From contig CAMDAN010000001.1 of NCBI GenBank assembly GCA_945888535.1, positions 1 through 64,000 of the forward strand: 64,000 nucleotides of DNA, in the 5' to 3' direction. The position numbers and the translations under genes were made by a program. The notes beneath the pieces were generated by a model. The model was not told where the DNA came from. It ran no database searches and was given only the letters and a program-made list of their open reading frames with translations. Within the stretch, counting starts at the first letter, position 1. The number at the start of each line of letters is the position of its first letter. Source of the stretch: Bordetella parapertussis. GTDB taxonomy: Bacteria; Pseudomonadota; Gammaproteobacteria; Burkholderiales; Burkholderiaceae_C. Shown one piece after another: positions 3,692 to 39,769 of the stretch.

Positions 3692-3703
3692 ACAAGGCAT
3701 GCC

Positions 3704-11144: not shown

Positions 11145-11155
11145 AAGGAACAACT

Positions 11156-13066: not shown

Positions 13067-13117
13067 GTTACCCGAAGCTACGCAGAGCTTTACAAACTAA
13101 TGCCAACTGCCTACTGA

Positions 13118-14008
13118 TCAATTTCGATCCACCATAAATGACTCAAATGCGCTGACGGAGTCTTTATGCCTTTTTCCATCCTTCTTGAGCAGCTCCTGCC
13201 AGATGGCAGGTAAGTCCTCCCCCTCCAGCGGGTCCGTTTCTACTGGCCATGCGCGGGCATATCGCCCACCCCCAGCAACCAGAACTTCTCCATTCAGAGT
13301 GCATTCTTTGCTAAGTAACCAGGCTACGGCGGGGGCAAGTGTTTCCGGCTGAAGCTTATTTACCCAATGCGAAGGCAAGTGAGAAGCGGTCATTTGTGAA
13401 TAGGCATATGGAGAAATAGCATTGCAATAAATATTGTGCTTTTCGCCTTCATGGGCTAAGGATCGAACCAACGACTCAATCGCGCCTTTGGAAGCGGCGT
13501 AGGCCGACAAGCCGTGATTTCCGAAGCGCCCAGCACTGGATGTGCTCGCCAGTGCCCTGCCAAAACGTTGTTCTTTAAAAATAGGCCAGGCGGCATGAAA
13601 AAGCGACAGCGTGCTCACCACACCGGTTTCGATAATTTGCATCAACTGTGAAACGCTCAGGGAGTGAAAAGACGCATGCTGAGAAATGGCAGCGTTGGCG
13701 TACACCATATCCAAGCTTCCCCATGTATTCATGGCTTGATCCACCATGCGGCGACCCGAATCTGGATCTAATGCGTCATCGTAATTGGCCTGCGCCTGCC
13801 CACCCTGCGCCAGAATTTCTTGTACTACGCCGCCAGCGCTGGATTGGGCATCTGTTTCTGAAGGATGTCGTCTGTTATTGACCAATACCTTCACGCCGCA
13901 GCTTGCCAAATACAGACTCATTGCCCGCCCAACGCCTTTTCCTGCGCCTGTAACGATAGCGACCTTGTTTTTCAACGACGGGAAGGTTTGAATGCTGTTT
14001 TTTATCAT
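13118..14008 (-). CDS. Short-chain dehydrogenase/reductase (SDR)
   Basis: A 296-residue classical SDR. The cofactor motif is VTGAGKGVGRAM (TGxxxGxG), NAAIS is the NAG-like motif, and the catalytic Ser and Tyr-x3-Lys are in STSSAGRF and SAYAASKGAIE. The NNRRH sequence after strand 2 (Arg pair) suggests NADP(H). The ATG follows an AAGGG ribosome-binding site on the minus strand. It is divergent from the first carotenoid-cleavage-type oxygenase, with 75 bases between, so the two are probably co-regulated. It would interconvert an alcohol and a ketone or aldehyde in that pathway; the substrate is unknown. The C-terminus extends about 40 residues past the usual SDR end. Confidence 0.9.
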   Translation of the reverse strand: MIKNSIQTFPSLKNKVAIVTGAGKGVGRAMSLYLASCGVKVLVNNRRHPSETDAQSSAGGVVQEILAQGGQAQANYDDALDPDSGRRMVDQAMNTWGSLDMVYANAAISQHASFHSLSVSQLMQIIETGVVSTLSLFHAAWPIFKEQRFGRALASTSSAGRFGNHGLSAYAASKGAIESLVRSLAHEGEKHNIYCNAISPYAYSQMTASHLPSHWVNKLQPETLAPAVAWLLSKECTLNGEVLVAGGGRYARAWPVETDPLEGEDLPAIWQELLKKDGKRHKDSVSAFESFMVDRN

Positions 14009-14083
14009 CGAAAACCCTTAGATGTGTTTATGAAAAATTCCATATACTTAGTAAGATAGTGATAGTAATTAACAAGGTTCAGT
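14009..14083. promoter_or_regulatory. Divergent promoter region between SDR and first CCO-type oxygenase
   Basis: The 75-base space must contain both promoters if the two genes are transcribed separately. Each gene has its own ribosome-binding site (AAGGG for the SDR, CAAGG for the oxygenase). The AT-rich centre contains a tandem array of short repeats, TAGTAAGA-TAGTGATA-GTAATTA (about 14049-14071), which could bind a regulator. No canonical -35/-10 pair stands out. Confidence 0.4.
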
Positions 14084-15574
14084 ATGTCTACTCAAATTTT
14101 GAACACCCTCAGCAGTAACCTGGTTCCTGGTGACCACCCTTACCTTCAAGGCGCTTGGACCCCCCTTCTTGAGGAGGTCAATGCCACTGAACTGGAAGTT
14201 TTGGAAGGCAGTATTCCGCTGGATTTGGATGGCGTTTATTTGCGCAACACCGAAAACCCGGTGTTTCAGGCCAAAGGCAAATACCATCCTTTTGATGGTG
14301 ACGGCATGCTGCACATGGCAGCCTTCAAAAATGGCAAGGCCAGCTACCGCAACCGATTCATCCAAACCAAAGGCTTGCAAGCCGAACTGGAAGCGGGTCG
14401 AGCGCTGTGGGCGGGCCTGATGGAAGATCCGGCCTTGTCCGAGCGAGCGGGCTGGGGCGCTCATGGCAGCCTTAAGGACTCTTCGAGCACTGATGTGGTG
14501 GTTCACGCAGGACGCGCTCTGACCACGTTTTACCAATGCGGCGAGGGCTACCGCGTCGATCCGATGAACCTGACGCACGAGGGCATTCCACCCTGGACTC
14601 CGCTGGACGGTATTTCCGCCCACTGCAAAGTGGACGAAAGCAACGGCGAACTGCTTTTTTTCAACTACTCCAAACACGCACCCTACATGCACTATGGCGT
14701 GGTCGACAAGCACGACAAGCTGGTGCATTACGTGCCCATTCCTTTGCCAGGCCCCCGCTTGCCGCACGACATGGCTTACACCGAAAACTACGCCATCCTC
14801 AACGATTTTCCTCTTTACTGGGACCCCGAGTTGCTGAAACAAGGCAAGCATGTGGTGCGCTTTTACAAAGATACGCCCTCGCGCATTGCCATCATTCCTC
14901 GGCGTGGGCAGACGCAAGACATCATCTGGTTTGAAGCCGCTCCCACCTTTGTGCTGCACTGGCTCAATGCCTACGAAGAGGGCGATGAGATCGTGCTTGA
15001 CGGCTATTTCCAGGACAACCCCATGCCCCGCAATTACGAAGGCGCGCCTGCAGGCTACGAGCGCATGATGTCGTATCTGGACCAGAAAAAAATGGGCTGC
15101 CACTTGCACCGCTGGCGCTTCAACTTGAAAACTGGCAAGACCACAGAAAAGCGTCTGGACGAGCGCATTCTGGAGTTCGGTATGTTCAACCAGCGCTTCG
15201 CTACAAAGCCTTACCGCTACGCCTACAGCGCCGTGCAAGTGCCCGGTTGGTTCTTGTTCCATGGCTATGTCAAACACGACTTGAAAACGGGCGACTCTTG
15301 GGAGATCCGCTTGCCCGAAGGGCAGTACGCCAGCGAGGCCCCCTTTGCCCCACGCGTGAACGCAAAGGACGAAGACGATGGCTACTTGGTGAGCTTCATC
15401 ACCAACGAGAAGACGCAACGTTCTGAAATCATCCTCATTGATTCCAAGAAATTTGACGCTGGCCCGGTTTGCCGCATTGCCTTACCCCACAAATTGTGCA
15501 GCGGCACCCATGCTTGTTGGGCCAGTGGCGCTGATTTGGAAATCGGCGGCTTGCTCTCCGGACAACCCCACTGA
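14084..15574 (+). CDS. Carotenoid-cleavage-oxygenase family dioxygenase, copy 1
   Basis: A 496-residue member of the RPE65/lignostilbene dioxygenase family. These enzymes use a four-histidine non-haem Fe(II) centre to cleave a C=C bond into two carbonyls. All four ligands are identifiable with family spacing: H180 (ISAHCKVD), H228 (LPHDMAY), H292 (LHWLNAYEEG) and H476 (GTHACW). Second-sphere Glu residues are plausible (E298/E299). The family motif YHPFDGDGMLH lies at about 67-77. There is no signal peptide, so it is cytoplasmic. The C-terminus (ADLEIGGLLSGQPH) departs from the usual HGTWV-type ending. Bacterial members cleave stilbenes, isoeugenol-type phenylpropenes or apocarotenoids; length does not decide among these. 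Confidence 0.92.
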   Translation: MSTQILNTLSSNLVPGDHPYLQGAWTPLLEEVNATELEVLEGSIPLDLDGVYLRNTENPVFQAKGKYHPFDGDGMLHMAAFKNGKASYRNRFIQTKGLQAELEAGRALWAGLMEDPALSERAGWGAHGSLKDSSSTDVVVHAGRALTTFYQCGEGYRVDPMNLTHEGIPPWTPLDGISAHCKVDESNGELLFFNYSKHAPYMHYGVVDKHDKLVHYVPIPLPGPRLPHDMAYTENYAILNDFPLYWDPELLKQGKHVVRFYKDTPSRIAIIPRRGQTQDIIWFEAAPTFVLHWLNAYEEGDEIVLDGYFQDNPMPRNYEGAPAGYERMMSYLDQKKMGCHLHRWRFNLKTGKTTEKRLDERILEFGMFNQRFATKPYRYAYSAVQVPGWFLFHGYVKHDLKTGDSWEIRLPEGQYASEAPFAPRVNAKDEDDGYLVSFITNEKTQRSEIILIDSKKFDAGPVCRIALPHKLCSGTHACWASGADLEIGGLLSGQPH

Positions 15575-15623
15575 ATCCGCACCACCGCCATTACCCCTAA
15601 CGCACACTGATTTGGAGAACACC

Positions 15624-17099
15624 ATGGGACTTGAAACCTTCGTTGAAACACCCCCTTATCTGATCGACAATCCGAATTTGCAAGGAGGTTTTGCCCCTAT
15701 CGATCAGGAGTTGGTGGTGCAAGATTTTGAAGTCATCGGTAAGATCCCCAAAGACTTCAGCGGCATGTATGTTCGCAACGGCCCTGTGCCACAGCACACC
15801 CCGAAAGGCAAATACCACTGGTACGACGGCGATGGAATGTTGCACGCGGTGCATTTTCAAAAAGGACAGGTCACGTACCGCAACCGCTGGGTCAACACCG
15901 ACGGTTTGCAGGCCGATAAAGCGGCCGGCGAAAGCATGGCCCCTGGACTCAAACAACGCCTGCCCGAAGGCGCATTGCCTGATGATGCGTTGAAAAACAC
16001 CTCAAACACCGATGTGAAATTTCACAACGGCAAGTTGCTCTCTATGTGGTACCGCGGTGGCGCGGTTTATCAAGTCGACCCAGTGAGTCTGGAAACACTG
16101 GGCAAACTGGATTCAGACCCGCGCTTAAAGGGTCTGCAAATTTCGGCCCACTCCCGCGTCGACGAACGCACGGGCGAGTACCTGTTTTTTGCTTACGGTA
16201 ACCAGCACCCCTATATGCATTACGGCGTGGTCAACGCGCAGGGCCAATTGCAAACCCTTATTGCGGTGGAGTTACCCGGTCCGCGCTTGCCGCACGACAT
16301 GGCCATCACCGCCAACTACAGCATCTTGCATGACTTCCCGCTGATCAATAACCCCGAGGCCCTTAAAGCCGGGCGTTACAGCCTAGAGTTTCACCCCGAG
16401 TGGAAATCGCGTTTTGCTGTTATTCCGCGCCACGGGAGCGCCGATCAAATCCGCTGGTTTGAAGCCGACCCCCGCTACATGCTGCATGTGGCCAACGCTT
16501 GGGAAGAAGTCAACGAAAAAGGCGAAACCGAATTGGTCATGTTGGGCACCCCCTACGCCATGCCCAAAAACTTTGACGGCTCTTTGGATGTCAAGCGCTT
16601 GCTGTTCACCATCGGCACCCAAGGCACCGAATACGAGTTCTACCAATGGCGCTTTAACTTGGCTACGGGCAAGACCCGCGAAAGCGTGGTGGACGACATC
16701 CTGAACACCGAGTTCCCGATGATCAACGCCTGGTACCAAGGCTACAAAAACCGCTACACCTACCATGTACTGATGGGCCGAGCGCGCACCGTGGAGCAAC
16801 CCCACTTTGCCGGTTTGGCCAAGTACGACCTGGAAACCGGCAGCGCTGTGACCTACCACCCCGGCGAAGGGTATTGGTTCAGCGAAGCCCCGTTTGCACA
16901 GCGTGATAATCCGCAATCGGAAGACGATGGCTACCTGATTGGCTTTGTTTGGAACGGCCTGAAAGACCGCTCAGAGGTCTGGATCATCGATGCAATGCAA
17001 GTAGCCAAGGGGCCAGTAGCACGGATCATCTTGCCGCAACGCGTTCCCCACGGCTTTCACAGCACCTGGGTGCGCGAAGCTTTGTTGCCACAAAGTTGA
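15624..17099 (+). CDS. Carotenoid-cleavage-oxygenase family dioxygenase, copy 2
   Basis: A 491-residue paralogue of the preceding gene, 49 bases downstream. The iron ligands are H176 (ISAHSRVD), H224 (LPHDMAI), H288 (LHVANAWEEV) and H479 (GFHSTW). The two copies share blocks such as YHxxDGDGMLH, PYMHYGVV and PGPRLPHDMA but are clearly divergent elsewhere, so this is not a recent duplication. Unlike copy 1 it has the standard VPHGFHSTWV C-terminus. The ATG at 15624 is used; the frame is open upstream but those codons overlap copy 1. Two non-identical cleavage enzymes in tandem suggest two bonds, two isomers or a stepwise cleavage of one substrate. Confidence 0.92.
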   Translation: MGLETFVETPPYLIDNPNLQGGFAPIDQELVVQDFEVIGKIPKDFSGMYVRNGPVPQHTPKGKYHWYDGDGMLHAVHFQKGQVTYRNRWVNTDGLQADKAAGESMAPGLKQRLPEGALPDDALKNTSNTDVKFHNGKLLSMWYRGGAVYQVDPVSLETLGKLDSDPRLKGLQISAHSRVDERTGEYLFFAYGNQHPYMHYGVVNAQGQLQTLIAVELPGPRLPHDMAITANYSILHDFPLINNPEALKAGRYSLEFHPEWKSRFAVIPRHGSADQIRWFEADPRYMLHVANAWEEVNEKGETELVMLGTPYAMPKNFDGSLDVKRLLFTIGTQGTEYEFYQWRFNLATGKTRESVVDDILNTEFPMINAWYQGYKNRYTYHVLMGRARTVEQPHFAGLAKYDLETGSAVTYHPGEGYWFSEAPFAQRDNPQSEDDGYLIGFVWNGLKDRSEVWIIDAMQVAKGPVARIILPQRVPHGFHSTWVREALLPQS

Positions 17100-17147
17100 T
17101 TGCAGTCTGATTGAAACTGTCTTCAACCTGATGGCGACATTGACACC

Positions 17148-17612
17148 ATGAGCACTTCAAAAATGCAAGCAACGGCCAAAGACCTGCATGGCGTCTGGAC
17201 CTTGGTGCGCTGGGAAATTACCTATGACGATGGCCGAGCCACCACCTATCCTTTCGGGCCTGACGCCACAGGCCTGATTCAGTACACCCATGACGGCGGC
17301 ATGGCCGCTTGCATCGCCCGGGCCAGCCGGGAACCTCTGTCAAGCGCCAGCGTACGCAGCGCCCCCGAGATTGAACGATTGAATGCCTTCGAGAGCTACT
17401 TTCAATACGCCGGACGATACGAAGTTCGTCAACACGAGGGCAAAGCCCAGGTGGTGCACCACGTGAGCCACGCCTTGAACCCGAACTTTGTCGGCAGCGA
17501 CCAAATTCGCAACATGGACTTCGCAGCCGATGGGGGCCTGACTTTGTCGGCCTCGGATCTAGTGCCCGGTTCGAGCACCTTAAGACACCACCGTTTGATC
17601 TGGAAGCGATGA
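17148..17612 (+). CDS. Lipocalin-like domain protein
   Basis: A 154-residue protein of the lipocalin-like (Lipocalin_5-type) group. Recognisable segments are LHGVWTLVRWE near the start, GLIQYTHDGGMAACIARASRE, SYFQYAGRYEV and the C-terminal LRHHRLIWKR. There is no signal peptide. The fold is a small beta-barrel that binds hydrophobic ligands or acts on them, and such proteins are common beside oxidoreductases for non-polar substrates. It lies between the CCO pair and the aldehyde dehydrogenase, overlapping the latter by ATGA (17609-17612), so it is part of the operon. A carrier or isomerase role for the cleavage substrate or product is a guess. Confidence 0.75.
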   Translation: MSTSKMQATAKDLHGVWTLVRWEITYDDGRATTYPFGPDATGLIQYTHDGGMAACIARASREPLSSASVRSAPEIERLNAFESYFQYAGRYEVRQHEGKAQVVHHVSHALNPNFVGSDQIRNMDFAADGGLTLSASDLVPGSSTLRHHRLIWKR

Positions 17613-19312
17613 TGAAACTGTTTGAAAAACACCGTCCGGCATTCGAAAAAGCCCAACAAACCTGCGTCACGCGCGAATGCTGGAGCCCCTACCCAGACAT
17701 GCCAGACAAATACCCTGAGGCCGCTCAAGCAAAAAGCACGGGACAGGCCGCTTTTGAACAGCACCTCAAAAACGGCCGATTTGAACTGGACCAACCCGGC
17801 ATCACGAACTGGATCGGCGAAGAAATATCGCCTTACACCCAACACGCTTTGGGCGTGGTCTACCCGCAATCGGACATCAACCCCCTGTTCGACGCGGCCG
17901 AAAAAGCAATGGACAGCTGGGCAAAAGCGCCTTACACGCAGCGCATTGGCGTGCTGATGGAAGTGCTCGAAGTTTTGTACCGTGACCACCTGTTCGAAGT
18001 CTTGCACGCGGTCATGCACACCGCCGGCCAAAGCTACAACATGGCTTATGCCGGCTCGGGCGTGAACGCTTTGGACCGCAGCATGGAAGCCTTGGTCTAT
18101 GCCGAACAGGCCATGCGCTCCGTAACCCCCAGCGCGGTATGGAAACGCCGCTTTGGTAGTTCAGATATTCAACTGCAAAAAACCTACCGTCTGGTACCGC
18201 GTGGCCCAGCCGTATGCTTTTCTTGTGCCAGCTTTCCTACCTGGAACGCTTGGCCCTCAATGATGGCAAGCCTTGCTACAGGAAACCCGGTGATCGTTAA
18301 ACCGCACCCGGCAACGGTGTTACCCATGGCCATTACGGTCAAAGCTTTCAGGCAGGTGCTCCAATCGCAGGGGTTTGATCCGAACCTGGTAACCCTTGCC
18401 ATTGATTCCACAGAGGACCCAATTGGTAAGGTGCTGATCAAGCACCCTAAAACAGCCATCGTGGACTTCACCGGTAGCGTGCGCTTTGGTCAATGGGTTG
18501 AGCAAAATTCCCACCCGGCCTTGGCCTTCACCGAAACCGCTGGTTGCAACACCGTGGTGCTCGAATCCAGCGATGATCTGGATGCAGCCTTGCGCAATCT
18601 GGCGACCACCATGTGCCTGTTCAGCGCGCAAATGTGCACCAGCCCGCAGAACATCTATGTGCCCAAGTCCGGTGTCCACACATCCCAAGGCCTGGTGCCT
18701 TTTGCCGAAGTGGCACAGCGCTTGGCCAATGCGGTGCATGCCTTAACGTCGGACCCCAAAAAAGCCGCCATGATTTTGGCCACCATCCAGTCGCCGCAAA
18801 CCTTGGCTTTACTACAAGACATGCAAGCGCAAGGGCAGCAACGCGGCAAGGTGTTGCTCGCGCCCTCGGCCTATGTCCACCCGCAATTTCCTAACGCACG
18901 CACCAGCACTCCGCTGATGCTGCAAGTGACTACGCAAGAACGTGATCTGTACGCCGAAGAGCGTTTCGGCCCCATCAGCTTCGTGATTGCCTGCGACGAT
19001 GCCCAAGACGCTTTGCACCAAGCTACATCCGATGCGCGTAAGCAAGGGGGGCTGACCGCATTTTTGTATTCCACGCGCGAAGACTTCATCGCCCAGGCTG
19101 AGGATGCCTATGCCCACGCAGGCGCACAACTGACCATCAACCTGGTTGGGGCGATGCCTTTGAACTTTGCAGCGGCCTACAGCGATTACCACGTCACGGG
19201 CCTGAACCCGGCGGGCAATGCCACCCTGACCAACCTGGCTTTTGTGGCGGGTCGGTTTGGCATCGTGCAATCGCGTCGGCCGGTCACACCAGAAAGTGGC
19301 ACGACCGCATGA
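17609..19312 (+). CDS. PaaN-like aldehyde dehydrogenase
   Basis: A 567-residue protein of the aldehyde dehydrogenase superfamily resembling phenylacetate-degradation protein PaaN (N-terminus LFEKHRPAFEKA, RECWSPYPDMP). The catalytic Cys is in AQMCTSPQN and the general-base Glu in AFTETAGCN; a PHPAT cofactor segment precedes them. It is longer than ordinary ALDHs by an N-terminal domain of about 80 residues, as in PaaN. No paaABCDE, paaG, paaJ or paaZ is nearby, so phenylacetyl-CoA degradation is not its context. It is well placed to oxidise the aldehyde released by the CCO-type enzymes. The first Met-Met pair overlaps the previous stop; either ATG may start. Confidence 0.85.
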   Translation: MMKLFEKHRPAFEKAQQTCVTRECWSPYPDMPDKYPEAAQAKSTGQAAFEQHLKNGRFELDQPGITNWIGEEISPYTQHALGVVYPQSDINPLFDAAEKAMDSWAKAPYTQRIGVLMEVLEVLYRDHLFEVLHAVMHTAGQSYNMAYAGSGVNALDRSMEALVYAEQAMRSVTPSAVWKRRFGSSDIQLQKTYRLVPRGPAVCFSCASFPTWNAWPSMMASLATGNPVIVKPHPATVLPMAITVKAFRQVLQSQGFDPNLVTLAIDSTEDPIGKVLIKHPKTAIVDFTGSVRFGQWVEQNSHPALAFTETAGCNTVVLESSDDLDAALRNLATTMCLFSAQMCTSPQNIYVPKSGVHTSQGLVPFAEVAQRLANAVHALTSDPKKAAMILATIQSPQTLALLQDMQAQGQQRGKVLLAPSAYVHPQFPNARTSTPLMLQVTTQERDLYAEERFGPISFVIACDDAQDALHQATSDARKQGGLTAFLYSTREDFIAQAEDAYAHAGAQLTINLVGAMPLNFAAAYSDYHVTGLNPAGNATLTNLAFVAGRFGIVQSRRPVTPESGTTA

Positions 19313-20283
19313 CCCACCCGCGCCTGCCCCTGCGACTGCCGGTGTTTGCCGCGCCGATGTTTTTGATCTCTGGCCCCGAGATGGTCATGGCCGCTTGCAA
19401 AGCGGGCATTGTCGGGGCCTTTCCCACCCCCAACGCGCGCCCCATCGACCAACTCGACGCTTGGATGAAAACCATCACCGAAGGCCTGGCGGCCGCCCGT
19501 GATGTACAAGGCGCAGACACGGTGGGGCCCTGGTGTGCCAACCTCGTCACCCACTCGTCCAACACCCGATTGACGCAAGACCTGGAATTGATTGCCCGCT
19601 ACAAACCACCCGTGGTGGTCACGGCTTTGGGCAGCCCCAAACCCGCCATCGAGGTGGTGCACAGTTATGGCGGCCGGGTGTTCGCCGACGTCATCACCCT
19701 GACGCTGGCCCAAAAAGCCGTCAAGGCCGGGGCCGATGGCCTGGCTTGCGTCTCGGCAGGTGCGGGTGGGCACACCGGCTTTTTGTCACCGTTTGCTTTT
19801 GTCAGCGCCATCCGCGAGTTCTTCGATGGCGAAGTGGTTTTGGGCGGCGGCATCAGCGACGGCTGGGGCATTGCTGGAGCCATCGCAGCAGGCGCCGATT
19901 ATGTGTACATGGGCACGCGTTTCATTCCGGCCCTTGAGAGCATGGCGCCCGAGGCCTACAAACAAATGGTCGTTGACAGCACGGTGGACGACCTGATCGT
20001 CAGCGCAGGGGTGACCGGCACATCGGCCAGTTGGCTCAAGCCCTCGCTGCGAATGAACGGCCTGGACCCGGACAACATGCCCGACGCTCCTTCCCGCCAA
20101 TACGACAGCAGCGCTTCTTTCGCGGGCAAGAAATGGTTGGACGTTTGGGCAGCAGGCCAGGGCCTGGGCACCATCCACCAAACCGCCCCCATGGCCAGCA
20201 TCGTCGATCAGTTGTCCCTCGAATACACCACCGCCACGCAGCGCTTGCAAGCCCTGCCCTACCCCAAAAGGAGTTTCCAATGA
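19309..20283 (+). CDS. Nitronate monooxygenase / FabK-like FMN oxidoreductase
   Basis: A 324-residue TIM-barrel flavoprotein. The FMN-binding elements are PVFAAPMFLISGPE at the N-terminus, SAGAGGHTGFLSPF with the active-site His at about residue 155, GGGISDGWGIAGA and ADYVYMGTRF. Members either oxidise alkyl nitronates or act as enoyl reductases (FabK type), and sequence alone does not settle which. The gene overlaps its neighbours on both sides (19309-19312 and 20280-20283), so it is part of the CCO operon. In a pathway with CoA intermediates and unsaturated chains an enoyl-CoA-reductase-like activity is more plausible than nitronate detoxification; that is inference. Confidence 0.85.
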   Translation: MTHPRLPLRLPVFAAPMFLISGPEMVMAACKAGIVGAFPTPNARPIDQLDAWMKTITEGLAAARDVQGADTVGPWCANLVTHSSNTRLTQDLELIARYKPPVVVTALGSPKPAIEVVHSYGGRVFADVITLTLAQKAVKAGADGLACVSAGAGGHTGFLSPFAFVSAIREFFDGEVVLGGGISDGWGIAGAIAAGADYVYMGTRFIPALESMAPEAYKQMVVDSTVDDLIVSAGVTGTSASWLKPSLRMNGLDPDNMPDAPSRQYDSSASFAGKKWLDVWAAGQGLGTIHQTAPMASIVDQLSLEYTTATQRLQALPYPKRSFQ

Positions 20284-23697: not shown

Positions 23698-23726
23698 CTT
23701 CCGTCCAGCATAAATAATAAATTGAA

Positions 23727-24668
23727 ATGCTTTCCAGTCCCGATTTAGAGCTGACACGCGAGGCACTCGCGACTAGCACCTTAAGCCATGGGCTCAAGGC
23801 CGTTGGCGACCGCTGGACAGTTCAAATCTTATTGGCATCTTTTTTGGGGGTGAGGCGATTTGATGAAATTCAAAACTACGCCCAAATCCCTAGGCCGACG
23901 TTATCTAATCGCCTACGTTCTTTAGTACAAATGGGTGTTTTAAAACCCAAAATTTACCAAGAAAATCCGCCTCGCTATGAATACCACCTTACGCGAAAAG
24001 GTATCGGACTTTACGATGCAACCCTCATGATTTGGGCTTGGGAAAAACGGTGGGGGGACAGAGCCATTGCATTACCCCAAAAACTCATTCACACCCGTTG
24101 CAATCACAGCTTTTCACCCCTTTTGACATGCCGAGCCTGTGGTGAAGCGGTATCTATGAAAGATCTCAGCTTCCAGTTGATTCCTAACAAGCGCTTAAAC
24201 ACCGCAACGATTGAGCGCCAGCAAACGCCACGAATGACAGGGGACGAAAACTCGGTTATGGGCTTAGGTTTGAGGGTTGACCGCTGGAGCTTAATGATAG
24301 TGGCTGCGGTGGTTCTGGGTTGTCACTATTTTGATCAAATTTCAAAGGTGCTCCAAATCGGGCCGAGTGTTTTATCGCGGCGCTTGTCTGGCATGCTCAG
24401 CTCCAATTTGTTGCATTGTGAGGCGGATACCTCCGATGCGCGAAGACGCGTCTACCGACTGACGCCTAGCAGCCGAGACTTGTTTGGATATATTGTTTGC
24501 CTTTCAACTTGGGCGGGTGAAGATCATCTGCACGAGATGAGCTCCATTCGACCTCGTCATACGACATGCCAGCGCAGCTTTTACCCCAAAGTTGCATGCA
24601 GCCATTGCCGAAAGGACATAGATGCATGGGCCGTTGATTTTGAATTTAAGGGCAAGAAACCAACATGA
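23727..24668 (+). CDS. Tandem-HxlR transcriptional regulator with two Cys/His clusters
   Basis: A 313-residue protein with two HxlR-type winged helices in one chain. The first (about 18-118) shows VGDRWTVQILL, RFDEIQ and PRPTLSNRLRSL; the second (about 180-270) shows RVDRWSLMIVA, YFDQIS and GPSVLSRRLSGM. Each is followed by the same pattern H-x2-C-x9-C-x2-C: H122, C125, C135, C138, and again H278, C281, C291, C294. The repeat suggests internal duplication, each unit a winged helix plus a small metal site. No Shine-Dalgarno precedes the ATG. Its stop overlaps the next permease start. It probably regulates the surrounding catabolic block as a pseudo-dimer. Confidence 0.88.
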   Translation: MLSSPDLELTREALATSTLSHGLKAVGDRWTVQILLASFLGVRRFDEIQNYAQIPRPTLSNRLRSLVQMGVLKPKIYQENPPRYEYHLTRKGIGLYDATLMIWAWEKRWGDRAIALPQKLIHTRCNHSFSPLLTCRACGEAVSMKDLSFQLIPNKRLNTATIERQQTPRMTGDENSVMGLGLRVDRWSLMIVAAVVLGCHYFDQISKVLQIGPSVLSRRLSGMLSSNLLHCEADTSDARRRVYRLTPSSRDLFGYIVCLSTWAGEDHLHEMSSIRPRHTTCQRSFYPKVACSHCRKDIDAWAVDFEFKGKKPT

Positions 24669-25549
24669 CAGAATTTTTGCAAACGATCGCACAACTCACG
24701 ATCAACGGAATCGCAGTAGGTGCCATTTATGCGCTGGTTGCACTTGGTATCGTGCTGATTTACAAAGCCACTGAAGTCCTTAACTTTGCGCATGGGGACT
24801 TACTGGTAGTGGCCGCCTTCAGTGCGTGGAGCTTAATTACATTGTGGCATTTGCCTTTTTGGCTCGCGCTACTTTGTGTGGTCCTCGGTGTGGCTTTGTT
24901 CTCCTATCTGTTAGATGCGTTCATTATTCGCAGAATCGCAGGACAACCACAGTTCTCTGGGGTCATGCTGACCATTGCACTTGCATTCATGATTCGAGGC
25001 GCAGTCAGTATGATTTTTGGACCTGAATCCAGAAACTACCCCACACCTTGGACCAATCAAAGCACGCACTTGTTTGGCTTGTCAATCGCCAATTTGCAAT
25101 TAGTGATCTTAGGGACCTCGATGGCGGTTACCTTGGTGTTGTATTTGTTTTTCAAAATGACACGCGTTGGAGTTGCAATGCAAGCATCATCTCAAAACCA
25201 ATTAGCAGCCTACTTAAATGGTGTCCCCGTTAAGCGTATTAACTCCTTGGTTTGGGCTTTGGGCGGAGTAACTGCTGCATTTGCAGGTGTACTTTTAGCG
25301 CCGATCACATTGGTAGATATCAGTCTTTGGTTCGTGACTCTCAAAGCACTTTCCGCTTTGGTGCTAGGGGGATTTGGCAGCATTCCGGGCGCGATTGTCG
25401 GCGGCTTACTCATTGGTCTTATAGAACAATATGTCGGGGTTTACATGCCCGATGGAACCAAGGATATCGTGGCCTATTTAGTACTTATTGCTGTACTCAT
25501 TGTGCGTCCCCATGGATTACTGGGTGAAGCCCATGGCCGCCGAGTCTAA
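24665..25549 (+). CDS. Second HAAT transporter permease, LivH type
   Basis: A 294-residue inner-membrane permease with about eight hydrophobic segments. LivH features include YALVALGIVLIYKATEVLNFAHG early on and GGFGSIPGAIVGG near the C-terminus. The start overlaps the regulator stop (ATGA), so regulator and importer are expressed together. The nucleotide composition is more AT-rich than in the first HAAT operon at 6.5-11 kb and the proteins are only distantly similar, so this is not a local duplication. It probably imports the substrate of the 13-31 kb pathway. Confidence 0.92.
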   Translation: MTEFLQTIAQLTINGIAVGAIYALVALGIVLIYKATEVLNFAHGDLLVVAAFSAWSLITLWHLPFWLALLCVVLGVALFSYLLDAFIIRRIAGQPQFSGVMLTIALAFMIRGAVSMIFGPESRNYPTPWTNQSTHLFGLSIANLQLVILGTSMAVTLVLYLFFKMTRVGVAMQASSQNQLAAYLNGVPVKRINSLVWALGGVTAAFAGVLLAPITLVDISLWFVTLKALSALVLGGFGSIPGAIVGGLLIGLIEQYVGVYMPDGTKDIVAYLVLIAVLIVRPHGLLGEAHGRRV

Positions 25550-25563
25550 ACAGGAAAAACACC

Positions 25564-26640
25564 ATGCGATTTGATTACTACACCCAGTACCGCCAAGGGT
25601 TTGCTCTTTTTAAAAGCCCCTTTGAGCGTAACCTTTACGCCTTGTTATTCTTTTTTCTAATTTCACTCCCCGGATTCATTACACCCTTTGCCCTGGGAGA
25701 AATGGCCTATGTGTTTATTTTGTGCATTGCCAGCTTGGGGTTGATGACCCTCACCGGCTTTACTGGACAAGTGTCTCTAGGTCATGCAGCGTTTGTTGCT
25801 ATAGGTGCGTATGGACACGCCTGGTTCATGTCAAAAGGCTTGCCACTCCCGCTTTCACTCATTTTGGCTGCAGGCGTGAGTGCTTCTGCTGGGTTGTTAG
25901 TTGGCATTCCAGCGATCCGAGTCTCTGGGCTGTATTTGGCAATGGTAACCATGGCATTTTCAATCATTGTGGAGCAAATCATCGGTCACTGGAACTCAGT
26001 GACGGGGGGGTTTACAGGCTTAGCCGTGAGTGATCCAACGATTTTTGGAATGGCCTTGGGTGGGCCCAAAGCGTTTTATTTTTTTTGCTTGATGGCATTG
26101 ATTGCTGTGCTACTTGTTTTGCTCAATGTTTTGCGTTCTGGCGTTGGCCGTGCTTTGATTGGCGTGCGCGAATCCGAGGCGGCCTCTTACGCCCTGGGTA
26201 TCCCCGTAGAGAAAATGAAAGTAACCGCTTTCGCACTGTCTGCAGGAATCACAGGCTTGGCGGGTGGCTTACTTGCGCACCACTTGAAATACCTGACCCC
26301 CGATGGATTTACCTTGATCCTTTCTCTTGAACTGGTTTTGATGGTGGTGATAGGTGGTCTGGGAAGTTTGCGAGGCGCAGTATTAGGCGCAGTATTAATT
26401 AGCTTGCTGCCTTCAGCAATATCAAGAATCAAACCTTTTTTGCCTGAAGGCTTAGCTAAACAATTCGGCTTAGAAACATTTATTTTTGGCTTGGTACTGG
26501 CTTTTTTTGTTCTATTTGAGCCCATGGGTTTAAACGGGCGATGGATCAAACTTCGAACGCTTTTGGAGTCTTTCCCGATCTACCGACAAGACACTTTCAA
26601 GCGCAACAAACGCTACATGAAATCGGAGCGCTACCGTTGA
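25564..26640 (+). CDS. Second HAAT transporter permease, LivM type
   Basis: A 358-residue permease. The LivM core is seen as LTGFTGQVSLGHAAFVAIGAY (key: GFTGQ, LGHAAF) and IGVRESEAASYALGI for the coupling loop, with GGLGSLRGAVLGA near the end. The N-terminus has an extra segment of about 25 residues and the C-terminus a basic tail (KRNKRYMKSERYR). It begins 14 bases after the LivH gene, and its stop overlaps a TTG start of the ATPase. Confidence 0.91.
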   Translation: MRFDYYTQYRQGFALFKSPFERNLYALLFFFLISLPGFITPFALGEMAYVFILCIASLGLMTLTGFTGQVSLGHAAFVAIGAYGHAWFMSKGLPLPLSLILAAGVSASAGLLVGIPAIRVSGLYLAMVTMAFSIIVEQIIGHWNSVTGGFTGLAVSDPTIFGMALGGPKAFYFFCLMALIAVLLVLLNVLRSGVGRALIGVRESEAASYALGIPVEKMKVTAFALSAGITGLAGGLLAHHLKYLTPDGFTLILSLELVLMVVIGGLGSLRGAVLGAVLISLLPSAISRIKPFLPEGLAKQFGLETFIFGLVLAFFVLFEPMGLNGRWIKLRTLLESFPIYRQDTFKRNKRYMKSERYR

Positions 26641-27416
26641 ACTCTCTCACTCCTCCCTCCCCCTTGTTAAAAGTTGAAAGCTTGTCGCTCACCTTTGGTG
26701 GGGTACAAGCCATTGCCGACTTAAGCCTGGAGGTTTACCCTGGCGAAGTCCTTGCGGTCATAGGCCCCAACGGCGCAGGAAAAACTTCCTTACTCAATGC
26801 GGTAACACGTGTCTTTGACGCAAGTGGTGGCACTATTTTCTATAACAACCAAAATCTGGCCTTGCTACAGCGCCACCAAATCGCCAACCTGGGAATTGCC
26901 AGAACGTTTCAGAATATTGAGTTGTTTGATTCCGCAACGGTCCTTCAAAATTTATTATTGGGACGCAATCGATTTTTCCAAGGACATTGGTGGCAACAAG
27001 TTTTGCGCACCCCTTCCCTCACGCGATTGGAAGAGTCCGCTTATGAAGCCGTTGAAGAAGTGATCGATTTTCTAGATTTAAGTCCCTGGCGTCACACTCT
27101 CATCACGGGATTGCCCTATGGCGTGCGCAAAGTGGTTGAGTTGGGGCGCGCACTCTGCGCCAAACCCGACTTGCTTTTTTTAGATGAGCCTGCTTCTGGA
27201 CTCAATCCTGAAGAAACACGCGATTTGGCGTTTTGGATTGACGATATTCGCAGCGAGTTGGGCATCACTGTTGTGATGGTTGAACACGATATGTCTCTCG
27301 TCAGCGCTGTCGCGGACAGGGTGATATGCATGGCACAGGGGCGTGTGCTGGCACAAGGCACCCCCTCGGATGTTCAAAGCCATCCTGCCGTTATTGCTGC
27401 GTATTTGGGAGCTTAA
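26637..27416 (+). CDS. Second HAAT transporter ATPase, LivG type (TTG start)
   Basis: A 259-residue ATPase with Walker A GPNGAGKTSLL, Walker B LLFLDEPASGLNPEE and the switch VEHDMS. The signature segment reads LPYGVRKVVELGRAL, the LivG variant. The start is taken as TTG at 26637, which overlaps the LivM stop as TTGA and gives a normal N-terminus. The only in-frame ATG, at 26541, would overlap LivM by 100 bases and add about 30 residues with no domain. This choice rests on gene spacing and family length. Confidence 0.9.
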   Translation: MNSLTPPSPLLKVESLSLTFGGVQAIADLSLEVYPGEVLAVIGPNGAGKTSLLNAVTRVFDASGGTIFYNNQNLALLQRHQIANLGIARTFQNIELFDSATVLQNLLLGRNRFFQGHWWQQVLRTPSLTRLEESAYEAVEEVIDFLDLSPWRHTLITGLPYGVRKVVELGRALCAKPDLLFLDEPASGLNPEETRDLAFWIDDIRSELGITVVMVEHDMSLVSAVADRVICMAQGRVLAQGTPSDVQSHPAVIAAYLGA

Positions 27417-27418
27417 AA

Positions 27419-28195
27419 ATGGACCTATTGCTAGAGGTGCGCAACTTAGAAACGTGGTATGGCCCCATTGCCGCAATGCAGGGTGTTAACTTGCAAGTTG
27501 AAAAAGGACAAATGGTTGCCGTACTTGGTGCCAATGGAGCAGGTAAGACAACTCTCCTCAATACGCTTGCGGGAGTCATTGATCCATTCAAAGGTCAGGT
27601 CCTCTTTAATGATCAAGCCATCCATGGACTTGACGCAGATAAGGTATGCCGACATGGTCTCGTTTTAGTCCCCGAGGCCAGACAAATTTATCCTTTCTTA
27701 AGCGTACGAGAAAACTTAAATATGGGGGCTTACACACGACGCGATCCCAGCGGAGTGAGCAAAGACCTAGAAAGAGTCTTTCAGTGGTTCCCTCGATTAA
27801 AAGAGCGTGAGCAACAACACGCCGGTCTACTTTCAGGTGGAGAACAGCAGATGTTAGCCATTGGGAGAGCGTATATGGCTCAACCCAAATTACTGATGCT
27901 CGACGAACCCTCATTAGGACTTTCACCTTTGTTGACTAAGGAGATTTTTAATATCATCAGTCGGATCCGCCAAGAAACGGGAACCTCTGTATTGGTCGTC
28001 GAACAAAACGCAGCCATTGCTTTGGCCCATGCTGATTTTGGTTACATCATGGAACTCGGGCGAATCGTAGCCGCCGATACCTGCGAAGCTTTGAGTCAAA
28101 AGTCGGATGTCAAAGAAGCCTATCTCGGTGGGCATGTTGACCAAGGCCTTAGTGGGACCTCTCAACGTTGGAAGAGACGCAAAACATGGCGCTGA
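27419..28195 (+). CDS. Second HAAT transporter ATPase, LivF type
   Basis: A 258-residue ATPase with Walker A GANGAGKTTLL, signature LSGGEQQMLAIGRAY, Walker B LMLDEPSLGLSP and the usual VVEQNA switch. It begins 2 bases after the LivG stop. After the usual LivF ending (KEAYLGG) there is a tail of about 20 residues (VDQGLSGTSQRWKRRKTWR) that is rich in basic residues and probably not part of the fold. With the two permeases, the LivG ATPase and the binding protein at 30140, it completes the second importer. Confidence 0.92.
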   Translation: MDLLLEVRNLETWYGPIAAMQGVNLQVEKGQMVAVLGANGAGKTTLLNTLAGVIDPFKGQVLFNDQAIHGLDADKVCRHGLVLVPEARQIYPFLSVRENLNMGAYTRRDPSGVSKDLERVFQWFPRLKEREQQHAGLLSGGEQQMLAIGRAYMAQPKLLMLDEPSLGLSPLLTKEIFNIISRIRQETGTSVLVVEQNAAIALAHADFGYIMELGRIVAADTCEALSQKSDVKEAYLGGHVDQGLSGTSQRWKRRKTWR

Positions 28196-28232
28196 AATCA
28201 CAACCAATCTATCAATTCCCACCGAAAACAAA

Positions 28233-30065
28233 ATGAGCCCAGAAAATAAAGTAATCAGCTTCGCAGGGGAGGATACCCCCGCACGACTGTTTCGACAAAG
28301 GTGTAACACCTGGGCGAGACAACCAGCACTGCGGCACAAAAGACGAGGACTTTGGCAAAGCACCAGTTGGGAAGAGTATTACAGCCATGTTCGATCTGTC
28401 GGTTTAGCGATGAAAGCCCTAGGGATAGGCCGCGGCCAGGTCGTATGTGTACTGGCAGAAAACCGTCCAGAGTGGTTGTTTATCGATATGGCTGCGCAGT
28501 GCATGGGAATGGTTGGAAACGGCGTTTACCCCACATCCTCTGGTGAGCAGTTACAACATGTCCTCCTAGATTCAGTTGCACAAATTCTGTTTGTCGAAAA
28601 CCAAGAACAACTGGATAAAACATTAGAAATTCGCGCCAAATGCCCGCAACTCAAGCACATCGTGGTGATGGACCATGATGGTCTTCGCAACTTGGAGGAT
28701 TCTTCAATCAGTTTTTTTGATGATTTCGTATCCAGAGGTCGTAAACTTGCTAAAACCCAATCTGTCGATTTCGAATCTGCGATTGACCAAACCCTTTCTG
28801 ATGACTTGGCATTTTTGGTCTACACCTCTGGAACCACAGGTGCGCCCAAAGGGGCAATGATTTCAAACCGCAACCTGGTATTTCAACTCCAGCTCGCTAC
28901 CCAGTATTTGGATGTTCAACCCGGTGATAAATCGGTGTCCTTTTTACCGCTCTGTCATATCGCAGAACGTATGGCCTCGGTTTACAACCCTTTGGCTATT
29001 GGACTGATCGTTCATTTTCCAGAAAACTCCGGAACTGTTTTTAACGACCTGCGCGAAGTAGCTCCGCATGTCGTCTTCGCACCGCCCCGCTTCTGGGAAA
29101 AAATGTACTCTCAGATTGATTTGTTCATGCGCGATGCAATTTGGCCTGCGCGGTGGGCTTACCAAAACGCCCAGAAATGGAGTTCTGCCTATGTGGAGGA
29201 GCAACTGCAAGGAGTTCGGCCCAAGAATCTAAATGTATTTCAGAGCGCCTTGAATTGGGTTGCACTGCGAAACGTTCGTATTTTTTTGGGTATGCAAAAT
29301 GTGAAAAATGCACTCACAGGAGCAGCACCTGTACCGCCTGATTTAATCCGCTGGTATTTAAGCTGCGGCATCGAACTCCGAGAAGCCTTTGGTATGACGG
29401 AGACCACGGGGTTTTGCACCTCAACGCCTAAAGGCGGTTTGAAATTGGGATGGGCAGGCATCAAGGCACCTGATACGGAAATTCGAATTGGCGAAAGTAA
29501 CGAAATATTAGTCCGTGGTCCTCACGTTTTTGGCGGGTATTGGAACTTGCCAGAAAAAACCAAAGAAACGATTGATGCAGAGGGATGGCTACATACGGGC
29601 GACTGCGGAGAAATCGACTCCGAAGGATATCTTGCCATCCGAGACAGGATTAAAGACATTTTGATCACGTCAGGCGGGAAAAATATAACCCCTAGCCATA
29701 TCGAAAGCCTGATTAAGTTCAGTCCCTACATCACCGATGCAGTCGTCATTGGTGATGCGAGAAAGTACCTCACTTGCTTGGTCATGATCGATCAAGAGCA
29801 TGTGGGGCGTTTCGCCCAAGAACATCAAGTTCCTTACACTGATTTTGGTAGCTTGACACGGTCACTTGAGATCAATGAATTGATTCAAAGTGAAATCGAG
29901 CGCATAAACGCCAAGTTGGCGCGGGTGGAACAAATTAAAGCTTTCAAAATCATTGGCGAGCAACTCACCGCCGAGGACGAAGAATTAACGCCTACGATGA
30001 AACTCAAGCGCAAGGTCATCGCCCGCAAGTATGCGGCGCTGATCGAAACCATGTACCCAAACTGA
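28233..30065 (+). CDS. Long-chain-type acyl-CoA synthetase (AMP-forming)
   Basis: A 610-residue ligase of the FadD15/long-chain group. The A3 motif YTSGTTGAPKGAM is at about residues 197-209, FGMTETTG is A5, TGDCGEIDSEGYLAIRDRIKD covers A7-A8, and the C-terminal LKRKVI holds the terminal Lys region. The ATG at 28233 starts MSPENKV; the frame is open back to 28107, inside the ATPase gene. It sits between the ATPases and the binding protein of one importer, an arrangement often seen where a hydrophobic acid is imported and thio-esterified. Its substrate is probably the acid formed or imported in this block, not a normal fatty acid; that is inference. Confidence 0.9.
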   Translation: MSPENKVISFAGEDTPARLFRQRCNTWARQPALRHKRRGLWQSTSWEEYYSHVRSVGLAMKALGIGRGQVVCVLAENRPEWLFIDMAAQCMGMVGNGVYPTSSGEQLQHVLLDSVAQILFVENQEQLDKTLEIRAKCPQLKHIVVMDHDGLRNLEDSSISFFDDFVSRGRKLAKTQSVDFESAIDQTLSDDLAFLVYTSGTTGAPKGAMISNRNLVFQLQLATQYLDVQPGDKSVSFLPLCHIAERMASVYNPLAIGLIVHFPENSGTVFNDLREVAPHVVFAPPRFWEKMYSQIDLFMRDAIWPARWAYQNAQKWSSAYVEEQLQGVRPKNLNVFQSALNWVALRNVRIFLGMQNVKNALTGAAPVPPDLIRWYLSCGIELREAFGMTETTGFCTSTPKGGLKLGWAGIKAPDTEIRIGESNEILVRGPHVFGGYWNLPEKTKETIDAEGWLHTGDCGEIDSEGYLAIRDRIKDILITSGGKNITPSHIESLIKFSPYITDAVVIGDARKYLTCLVMIDQEHVGRFAQEHQVPYTDFGSLTRSLEINELIQSEIERINAKLARVEQIKAFKIIGEQLTAEDEELTPTMKLKRKVIARKYAALIETMYPN

Positions 30066-30139
30066 GAAGGCCACTCAGGGTATTCACGCATTTCCGAAAA
30101 ATGGCCAAGCGGATATCATTAATCAACAAGGAGACAATT

Positions 30140-31315
30140 ATGCGATTTAATTTTAAAAGTACCATCCTCGCAATGGGCATGTTGCCATTTTTGCTCGGCA
30201 CGGCTCACGCGCAAACACAGGGCGTAAGTGATACCGAAATTTTGATCGGTAGCCATATTGATTTATCCGGTCCAGCGGCCCCAGGTATGCCGATGCTTCG
30301 AAATGGAATGCAATTGCGCATCGACGAAGTCAACGCTGCTGGCGGTGTGCATGGTAGAAAAATAAAACTGCTCGTTGAAGACAATGGCAGCCAACCGCAA
30401 ATGGCTGTTCGTGCAGTTCAAAAACTGGTTAAAAGTGACAATGTTTTCGCGCTGCTTAATTCGTTTGGGTCTGGCGCAAATGCAGCCACTGTAAAAGCGG
30501 CAACCGATGCAGGTGTTTTGGTGTTTGCGCCATGGGCCGCATCTGGAATCATTCAAAAAGTAAGTGGTAACAGTCCCTTACTTTTCACCACGGTTCAAAA
30601 CTACGACACCACAACCAATAACGGTGTTTCTTGGGCCGTCAAAAATTGGAAAGCCCAGAAGGTTGGATTTATCTACCAAGAAGGCCCGTTGGGTGACTTG
30701 GTCAAAGCAGGACTCGTCGAATCGCTCAAAAATAGCTCGGCAACGCTAGCAGCTGAAGCCTCTACCAAGGCTGGTGATATTGATTTTTCATCGCAAGTTG
30801 CAAAAATGAAAGCAGCTAACGTTGACATGATTTTTATGGCCAGTATTTTGCGTGACACAGTGGGTGTGATGTCAGAGGTAAAAAAACTCAACTGGTCAGA
30901 CGTGAAGGTGTTAACAGCCCTTCCAGGACGGTCTTCCATTGTTGCTAAAACAGGCAAAGAGTCAGTCGAAGGTTTATACGGAATTGGTGGCTGGAAATTG
31001 CATGATCCTGAAACCACAGAGCCCGCAGCTAAAAAATTCTTGGCGGATTTCAAACAGAAATTCAACATGGATGCGGATGAAAATGCTGCCAATTCTTACT
31101 CTTACACCTCTTGGTTCATCGCAGGCTTGCAAGCCAATGGCCGTAACCTGAGCTCTCAATCCTTGGCAAAAGCATTGCAAACGGTTCCACACCAAGACTT
31201 CACTACGTATTCACGCCAAACTTTCACGAACAACCATGTAGGCCCTGAAATGGCTTCTATTGACGTGATCAAAAATGGTAAGTGGACCCAAGTTGCTGCG
31301 CCTTCGGGCAAGTAA
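30140..31315 (+). CDS. Second HAAT transporter substrate-binding protein
   Basis: A 391-residue periplasmic receptor. The signal peptide is about residues 1-25 (cleavage after AHA). The mature part starts QTQGVSDTEILIGSHIDLSGP, the standard first strand and ligand loop of this family. AAGGAGAC precedes the ATG at 30140. It is the last gene of the transporter-ligase operon and is followed by a clear terminator (31350-31398). It is not closely similar to the receptor at 6544, so the two importers probably have different ligands. Confidence 0.92.
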   Translation: MRFNFKSTILAMGMLPFLLGTAHAQTQGVSDTEILIGSHIDLSGPAAPGMPMLRNGMQLRIDEVNAAGGVHGRKIKLLVEDNGSQPQMAVRAVQKLVKSDNVFALLNSFGSGANAATVKAATDAGVLVFAPWAASGIIQKVSGNSPLLFTTVQNYDTTTNNGVSWAVKNWKAQKVGFIYQEGPLGDLVKAGLVESLKNSSATLAAEASTKAGDIDFSSQVAKMKAANVDMIFMASILRDTVGVMSEVKKLNWSDVKVLTALPGRSSIVAKTGKESVEGLYGIGGWKLHDPETTEPAAKKFLADFKQKFNMDADENAANSYSYTSWFIAGLQANGRNLSSQSLAKALQTVPHQDFTTYSRQTFTNNHVGPEMASIDVIKNGKWTQVAAPSGK

Positions 31316-31349
31316 CGCTAATTAAAAAGTCCACCTATTCAATAAATCT

Positions 31350-31398
31350 GCAACGCATTCGATGGAAAGAAATTTTCTTTTTGTGCGTTGCATTTTTT
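31350..31398 (+). terminator. Rho-independent terminator after the second HAAT operon
   Basis: An 8-base stem GCAACGCA (31350-31357) pairs with TGCGTTGC (31384-31391). Between them lies a second inner hairpin, AAAGAAA against TTTCTTT. A run of six T follows at 31393-31398. It lies 35 bases after the receptor stop and before the next operon, so it probably ends the transcript that began in the 13-24 kb region or at the transporter. Confidence 0.75.
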
Positions 31399-33082: not shown

Positions 33083-33100
33083 ACACTCGGGAAATGTGAG

Positions 33101-34977: not shown

Positions 34978-35011
34978 GCCACAAGTCCCTCGCATAACCC
35001 CCAAAATTGAA

Positions 35012-37025: not shown

Positions 37026-37064
37026 ATCACTGATCACGCGTTCCTACTTTTGAGGAAAATAGCC

Positions 37065-39753: not shown

Positions 39754-39769
39754 TTTTAGGGTTGAGACC

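Follow-up and report, generated by a model that had tools for sequence, protein, structure and literature searches.

What do two oxygenases of the family that cleaves carotenoids contribute to a run of genes for import and coenzyme A (CoA) metabolism, and do these genes form one unit? The locus in question lies in a window of 64,000 nucleotides, the whole stretch of DNA that was analyzed (positions 1 to 64,000 of the forward strand of contig CAMDAN010000001.1, assembly GCA_945888535.1, Bordetella parapertussis), and comprises an SDR oxidoreductase, the oxygenases CCO1 and CCO2, a lipocalin-like protein (LIP), a PaaN-like aldehyde dehydrogenase (PaaN), an FMN enzyme (NMO), two thiolases (THL1 and THL2), a DUF1295 membrane protein, an HxlR-type regulator, a Liv-type importer, and a FadD-like ligase, with a further adenylate-forming ligase (LIG3) downstream. 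The original prediction had seen here one catabolic unit in which C=C-cleaving-family oxygenases, aldehyde oxidation, CoA activation, and thiolysis act together, and both the gene set and its conservation support that view. The unit is better supported than sequence alone could show, and the new point is the oxygenases themselves, which belong to a clade lacking a Glu that is otherwise a partner of the iron site.

A clade of oxygenases with an altered iron surround

CCO1 (14084..15574, plus strand) and CCO2 (15624..17099, plus strand) are full-length members of the RPE65/carotenoid cleavage oxygenase superfamily (PF03055; 405 and 410 bits, respectively, against a cut-off of 27 bits). Sequence comparison with solved structures places both nearest to plant carotenoid 9,10-dioxygenases, and the predicted model of CCO2 (predicted local distance difference test score [pLDDT], 90.3) has the beta-propeller fold of the family. 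Both fall under the cut-offs of all three NCBIfam models matched, including the lignostilbene equivalog model (209 and 244 bits against 800) and the NOV2 model (176 and 203 bits against 650). According to PMC8191317, Glu135 of the lignostilbene dioxygenase LSD4 bonds an iron-binding His, the phenol in stilbene cleavers is held by Tyr101 and Lys134, and the iron-binding His residues with three acidic partners are kept in all carotenoid cleavage dioxygenases (CCDs) characterized to 2021; PMC12051055 and PMC8191317 describe the same three second-sphere carboxylates, hydrogen bonded to His, in other CCDs. The strand at the Glu place reads LLALSE in plant CCD1, LLAMSE in VP14, LLALKE in the lignostilbene dioxygenase of P. 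brassicacearum, and YAMKE in LsdA. The same strand is LLSMWY in CCO2, ending in Trp142-Tyr143, and ALTTFY in CCO1 by multiple alignment, with Tyr at the Glu place and Phe before it.

None of the equivalents of LSD4 Glu135, Tyr101, and Lys134 is retained in either protein, the places of the latter two being occupied by Met and Phe in CCO1 and by Lys and Trp in CCO2. To our knowledge, stilbene cleavage requires neither a CoA ligase nor a thiolase. That the enzymes are lignostilbene-type cleavers of stilbenes or phenylpropenes, and that the block degrades lignin-derived dimers, is therefore quite improbable: they share superfamily and fold with such cleavers, but their scores are far below the cut-offs of the corresponding models, and the Tyr/Lys pair to which PMC8191317 assigns phenol binding is lost from both. 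Stilbenes and phenylpropenes, which the original prediction had named among the possible substrates, are accordingly not supported.

Among 290 aligned oxygenases (2 from the window, 168 from related loci, and 120 from a protein search, a set biased to CCO2 relatives), Tyr occupies the Glu place in 243 and Glu itself in 30; the others have Ser (11), Phe (3), Trp (2), or a gap (1). A tree was made from 74 dereplicated rows, 47 without and 27 with the Glu, the groups being defined by residue 143; a branch with 100/100 support sets all 47 rows without it apart from those that have it, and the label changes once on the tree, against a mean of 22 changes in shuffles. Two sites that played no part in defining the groups separate them completely: Asp130 and Pro223, which adjoins His224, each occur in 46/46 clade rows, the CCO1 row of the window being excluded from these counts, and in 0/27 comparison rows. 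His176, His224, His288, and His479 are kept in all 46 and occupy the same four columns in the CCO1 of the window, Thr129 and Glu363 are invariant, and Glu421 is present in 45 of the 46. Because the four His residues, Thr129, Glu363, and Glu421 are retained, a cleavage-type iron site, with its surround altered on one side, is plausible from the alignment. Two of the three second-sphere carboxylates are thus kept and the third is replaced by Tyr, Ser, Phe, or Trp, and for this reason we place both oxygenases within the PF03055 superfamily and outside all of its characterized subfamilies. The earlier description of two C=C-cleaving oxygenases was correct as to family and had missed the separate clade.

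A fold kept for a different reaction, with the clade acting as an isomerase, hydratase, or monooxygenase on a CoA ester now that the second-sphere Glu is gone, must be considered in the light of these residues. The Glu is absent clade-wide; the titles of crystal entries name Glu150Gln and Glu150Asp variants of the Synechocystis enzyme ACO, so that a Glu at this place, likely the equivalent one, has already been a target of mutagenesis; and RPE65, of the same superfamily, is an isomerohydrolase by its entry names. Retention of the four His residues, of the occluding Thr129, and of the two other Glu residues (with a single Glu421 exception in 46) argues the other way, as does a PaaN-like enzyme beside 48/82 clade members, which is expected if aldehydes are made, and we consider a changed reaction unlikely.

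Gene context of the clade

Context was judged for oxygenase genes with at least 4 kb on each side, partners being counted within 10 kb at set identity and coverage thresholds. At least two of LIG3, NMO, THL1, and THL2 accompany 62/82 clade members and 0/27 comparison oxygenases, 1 of the 27 having NMO nearby, and the PaaN-like aldehyde dehydrogenase is the companion of 48/82 clade members. Most of these 82 were found by likeness to CCO2. In a less biased set of 40 stretches, picked from the hits of PF03055 searches (30 from one and 7 from another) plus three from the CCO2 search of the order and not drawn at random, at least two partners were found for 5/9 clade members against 0/27 comparison oxygenases (p = 3e-4) and at least one for 7/9 against 1/27. 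Members on early branches (L193, L198, and L206) have LIG3, NMO, PaaN, and THL1. Three loci from another class of the phylum (L199, L202, and L203) carry CCO1 relatives at 63-65% identity, neighbored by HxlR-like genes in all three, by TonB receptors in L199 and L202, and by SnoaL and DUF1295 proteins in L199 and L203.

Members with Ser at the Glu place are found on plasmids. In C. basilensis pRK1-2 (L028, 13953-21570), two such clade oxygenases lie with NMO, a ligase, a thiolase, and an HxlR-like regulator, and the annotated layout of C. necator pENH92 is similar. On a Sphingopyxis plasmid (L027, 10596-15410), a Ser-type clade oxygenase is adjoined by a TonB receptor and an annotated aromatic ring-hydroxylating dioxygenase.

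Conservation and boundaries of the unit

The block is an accessory catabolic unit, present in some related bacteria and missing from others. In three relatives (L046, with 90-94% DNA identity to the window, and L054 and L055, with 83-86%), positions 17107-41537, from LIP through LIG3, are missing as one stretch, and the DNA passes from CCO2 (15613-17106; to 17084 in L046) directly to 41538. The SDR and CCO1 (13067-15612) are also missing from L046 and L054, the L055 contig starting at CCO2, so that CCO2 is retained with the rest of the block gone as far as the contigs show. A further stretch, about 42614-44222, with an HTH_18 regulator (42638-43603, minus strand), is also missing from all three, and no 10-base direct repeat was common to the junction stretches compared. 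These empty sites give the accessory part boundaries and tie LIG3, the amidohydrolase, and the CobW-type GTPase to it beyond 31315; the extent of 13118..31315 given in the original prediction thus covers a real set and falls short of a unit that reaches about 41537 and adds an oligopeptide importer and these three genes.

Co-occurrence was assessed in 300 genomes of the host's order. CCO2 matches at E <= 1e-60 were found in 9/300, of which six are of the block type (E <= 1e-150), while the remaining three are 33-36% identical and have the usual Glu. NMO at 65% identity or more occurs in the same six genomes and in no other among the 300 (lower-identity relatives extend the matches to 89/300); the chance of CCO2 and NMO sharing six genomes is 1 in 9.6e11 with genomes taken as independent and 1 in 3.5e8 by genus, figures that are only a guide, since the genomes are related. 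THL1 at E <= 1e-140 was found in 5/300, all within the six. PaaN matches at E <= 1e-100 number 30/300, of which only four, all within the six, are at 67-90% identity and the others at 35-44%; in the nearest genome (G001, 77% complete), the block PaaN is the sole match at that threshold. Co-occurrence in the same genomes, together with the empty sites, argues for more than chance association.

Among named genomes, 152 relatives of CCO2 were detected, and the best 80 of these were retained; 40 of the 80 loci, many of them near relatives, had at least 5 kb of flank on both sides. At least two of the core partners NMO, THL1, PaaN, LIG3, THL2, and LIP were present at 32 of these 40 (NMO at 31, PaaN at 30, THL1 and LIP at 24 each, and LIG3 at 19), and a looser count over the best 80 of the 152 relatives, short loci included, gave at least two partners in 48. 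One layout, LIP-PaaN-CCO2-LIG3-alpha/beta hydrolase-NMO-THL1-HxlR with variable parts, is found in Variovorax, Polaromonas, Curvibacter, Ramlibacter, Xylophilus, and C. basilensis, and Cupriavidus is among the genera with related clusters; in the Variovorax cluster the hydrolase resembles PcaD, with a score under the model cut-off, and no such hydrolase was found among the window block proteins scanned. A second layout, CCO1-CCO2-LIP-PaaN-NMO-THL1-(DUF1295)-THL2-HxlR-Liv, is found in Limnohabitans and in records L061-L064 (two Pararhodobacter, one Rhodobacter sp., and one bin labeled Proteobacteria only), whose CCO1, CCO2, PaaN, NMO, THL1, THL2, and Liv proteins are 63-77% identical to those of the window and whose LIP and HxlR proteins are 50-54% identical. 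Since the 63-77% level spans classes, it suggests horizontal transfer, as judged from the identities of the block proteins only. CCO1 is 99% identical in G001, and relatives with CCO2 at 90-96% identity are Limnohabitans isolates and metagenome bins labeled Comamonadaceae, Burkholderiales, Sulfuritalea, and Limnohabitans, from which labels the block-bearing bacterium is probably a member of the freshwater genus Limnohabitans or a near relative.

Gene sets, co-occurrence, and empty sites thus bear out the expectation that the set is conserved as a unit. Scattering of the genes in relatives had been named as evidence against it; the set lies together at most loci, with exceptions that include G138, G268, G295, L104, L107, and L122. 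Some of these exceptions bear on a possible but rather unlikely arrangement, in which two or three modules for different substrates stand side by side: the oxygenases with the thiolases, the Liv importer with FadD, and the oligopeptide importer with the amidohydrolase, CobW, and LIG3. Thus CCO2 occurs with only LivHMGF and FadD in L104 and L107, where no FMN enzyme or thiolase lies in the fetched DNA, and with LivHMGF in L122; oxygenase, LIG3, and FMN enzyme occur without an adjoining Liv set in Variovorax, Curvibacter, and Cupriavidus; and the G+C content is 0.48 at 24 to 32 kb against 0.53-0.58 in the flanks. All three modules, however, are missing as one stretch from the three relatives with empty sites, and the amidohydrolase and CobW genes also adjoin the oxygenase cluster in G295 and L065.

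At some other loci, CCO2 stands alone within the fetched DNA. Within L099-L125, the fetched flanks of 21 CCO2 relatives (about 54-56% identity) lack all six core partners, and several of these relatives have other neighbors in common; they may have a different role. Just upstream of the cluster in Pararhodobacter aggregans (L061, 423-8299) lie a second NMO (50%), a LIG3-like ligase (34%), a THL1-like thiolase (55%), a PcaD-like hydrolase, a TRAP importer, and an ABM-domain protein.

Gene content of the block

Profile matches, judged against Pfam and NCBIfam cut-offs, confirmed every gene of the predicted list, each above its Pfam cut-off. The SDR oxidoreductase (13118..14008, minus strand; PF00106) is divergent from the remaining genes, and its copies beside CCO1 are 63-70% identical in relatives and 96% in the nearest genome; everything else from 14084 to 31315, and on to LIG3, runs on the plus strand. 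LIP (17148..17612; PF13924) is followed by the PaaN-like aldehyde dehydrogenase (17609..19312; TIGR02288 [PaaN_2], 605.2 bits, cut-off 578.75), which belongs to a separate PaaN group (67-90% identity within, 35-44% to other PaaN proteins), and by NMO (19309..20283; PF03060), an NMO/FabK-type FMN enzyme whose nearest solved relatives are FMN enoyl-ACP reductases. THL1 (20280..21518; NF004936, 586 bits, cut-off 375) is an SCP2-type thiolase of the PRK06289 group, the DUF1295 membrane reductase-like protein (21515..22501; PF06966, 158 bits) overlaps the steroid 5-alpha-reductase model just above cut-off, and THL2 (22498..23697; PF00108/PF02803, TIGR01930 above cut-off) is a classical thiolase. 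The regulator (23727..24668) matches PF01638 in two stretches and is a tandem HxlR protein. Likely corrected starts are 15624 for CCO2, 20280 for THL1, and 22498 for THL2. From these coordinates, 4-base ATGA start/stop overlaps occur at six junctions (LIP/PaaN, PaaN/NMO, NMO/THL1, THL1/DUF1295, DUF1295/THL2, and HxlR/LivH); the overlaps claimed for most of the genes are therefore real and do not extend to most of the whole set.

The importer has the composition of a Liv-type system, namely LivH-type (24665..25549) and LivM-type (25564..26640) permeases, both PF02653, a LivG-type ATPase (26541..27416, true start probably later; PF00005, BCA_ABC_TP_C), a LivF-type ATPase (27419..28195; best models LivF/UrtE), and a Peripla_BP_6 substrate-binding protein (30140..31315; PF13458). 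Its proteins score under the LivHMGF equivalog cut-offs, and the ligand is therefore left open. Between ATPase and binding protein lies the FadD-like acyl-CoA ligase (28233..30065; PF00501, AMP-binding_C_3), for which the start position is a choice; the G+C figure of 0.48 belongs to positions 24001-32000, the Liv and FadD genes. Beyond them, within the missing stretch, come the oligopeptide-type ABC importer (31490..37025: binding protein, 31490-33082; permeases, 33101-34078 and 34075-34977; ATPases, 35012-36022 and 36015-37025), the amidohydrolase (37050..38735; Amidohydro_3), with copies by the cluster in G295 (75%) and L065 (50%), the CobW-type GTPase (38767..39753), which adjoins it there (44% and 52%, respectively), and LIG3 (39746..41494; PF00501), a class I adenylate-forming ligase 48-61% identical to the ligase adjoining CCO2 in relatives.

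LIP matches the Lipocalin_5 family, and its model is a confident lipocalin-like barrel (pLDDT, 95.3), and Arg, His, Tyr, and Asn residues are conserved in it; its match list mixes retinol-, bilin-, and bile salt-binding proteins, so that LIP may bind a small hydrophobic ligand. The window also holds a second catabolic operon (32-11144) with an Oxidored_FMN enzyme, an enoyl-CoA hydratase, an acyl-CoA dehydrogenase, a CoA ligase, and its own Liv importer; positions 7847-13064 are kept in L046, which is without the block. At 44217-49331, a metallo-beta-lactamase-fold protein (minus strand) is followed by a histidinol dehydrogenase-like protein, a DegT aminotransferase, and a pyridoxal phosphate (PLP) decarboxylase in a row.

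Proposed pathway and substrate

We propose that the unit imports an unsaturated carboxylic acid, activates it with CoA, cuts C=C bonds, and finishes by aldehyde oxidation and thiolysis, a scheme that we hold to be about evenly balanced between right and wrong. The acid would enter by an ABC importer, the Liv system, and its CoA ester would likely be formed by FadD or LIG3. CCO1 and CCO2 would cut two different C=C bonds, the FMN enzyme and the DUF1295 protein would act on conjugated C=C bonds by reduction or by a shift, and the PaaN-like enzyme would oxidize a CoA-bound semialdehyde, as PaaN-type enzymes do in phenylacetate breakdown. THL1 and THL2 would then split beta-keto esters arising from C=C cleavage, without the usual hydratase and dehydrogenases, and beta-methyl branches, at which beta-oxidation stalls, would be no obstacle to such a route. 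Neither an enoyl-CoA hydratase nor an acyl-CoA dehydrogenase was found among the block proteins scanned, which fits C=C cleavage as the source of beta-keto esters, although this is suggestive only, since the SDR could provide one dehydrogenase step and genes elsewhere in the cell could cover what is left.

Because such a bypass would suit beta-methyl branches, apocarotenoid or isoprenoid acids are the leading candidate substrate class. An isoprenoid type is favored because the nearest solved relatives of the oxygenases cleave carotenoids, and an acid because of the two ligases, the binding-protein importers, and the TctC-type binding proteins of related loci (in L107 and, as annotated, on plasmids); acid and CoA together are favored by the two CoA ligases and two thiolases of the unit, by Liv and FadD beside CCO2 in L104 and L107, and by Liv in L122. 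Abscisic acid, with cleavage of the side chain at its beta-methyl branch to give dehydrovomifoliol, would be a specific case. The enzymes with which bacteria shorten this side chain have yet to be identified (PMC9599779; PMC12509608): Rhodococcus sp. P1Y converts abscisic acid to dehydrovomifoliol by enzymes that the authors of PMC9599779 could not name, and they expect beta-oxidation to be hindered by the branch. The plant carotenoid 9,10-dioxygenases as nearest solved structures point the same way, and the DUF1295 protein, given its overlap with the steroid 5-alpha-reductase model, could act on a ring enone. The argument is purely chemical, however, no genome of an abscisic acid degrader was shown in this analysis to carry the block, and a term search of the main text of the Novosphingobium sp. 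P6W dataset paper was without match; we regard abscisic acid as highly improbable.

Several observations weigh against the proposed scheme. Cleavage could be altered or lost, given that a residue retained by the comparison enzymes is gone. Among the nine clade members of the less biased set, no partner lies within 10 kb in L200 and L204, and THL1 is the sole partner in L195 and L203, while 8/40 well-flanked loci carry CCO2 without two core partners. Of the six genomes of the block type, G268 lacks THL1 and PaaN at the set thresholds, G295 lacks PaaN, and G138 has THL1 and PaaN on a different contig from the oxygenases. The best LIG3 matches in four other Limnohabitans isolates (48-51%) lie away from the cluster, and no LIG3 match was present in Limnohabitans DM1 or in the L046 bin. 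We found no activity, metabolite, or expression data on the block and nothing showing that the oxygenases accept CoA esters, and a literature search found no test of the predicted substrate class in print.

A bolder proposal, which we offer as doubtful, is that the clade constitutes a new class of four-His iron oxygenase whose second sphere has been rewired by loss of the Glu and gain of Asp130 and Pro223 and which would cut C=C bonds of CoA-bound branched or isoprenoid acids and pass beta-keto esters directly to thiolases, an O2-dependent bypass of beta-oxidation across freshwater and soil Proteobacteria. With one acid missing throughout a large clade linked to a CoA pathway, nature has in effect run an experiment on the tuning of the iron site. 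If the bypass is real, these would be genes by which bacteria degrade branched isoprenoid acids, for example the apocarotenoid acids of algae and plants, in freshwater Limnohabitans, and the marker "TD ... no Glu ... PHD" lets genes named carotenoid oxygenase or apocarotenoid-15,15'-oxygenase be re-annotated.

Comparison with known systems

The lignostilbene dioxygenases LsdA, LSD4, and NOV1 share superfamily and fold with the block enzymes, which differ in having neither Tyr101 nor Lys134, in the replacement of Glu135, and in the CoA-ester context of their genes. Plant CCD1 (PDB 9m3e/7vud) is the best sequence match among solved structures (34% identity over 456 residues aligned to the CCO2 model) and shares the fold, the four His residues, and two Glu residues, whereas the Glu of its LLALSE strand is Tyr in the block enzymes; we know of no catabolic operon that contains CCD1. 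The phenylacetate pathway pairs semialdehyde oxidation with thiolysis and is a model for the block, which has a PaaN family member above cut-off with thiolases adjoining; unlike PaaN/PaaZ of that pathway, the block PaaN falls in its own group (67-90% versus 35-44% identity), and no ring epoxidase or hydratase was found among the block proteins scanned. The clusters of C. basilensis pRK1-2 and Sphingopyxis pRW412b differ from the block in the Ser of their oxygenases, where the block has Tyr, and in an alpha/beta hydrolase and other SDR and aldehyde dehydrogenase genes, none closest to the block PaaN being seen, but they share with it an oxygenase of the same clade, NMO, an adenylate-forming ligase, a thiolase, and an HxlR-like regulator.

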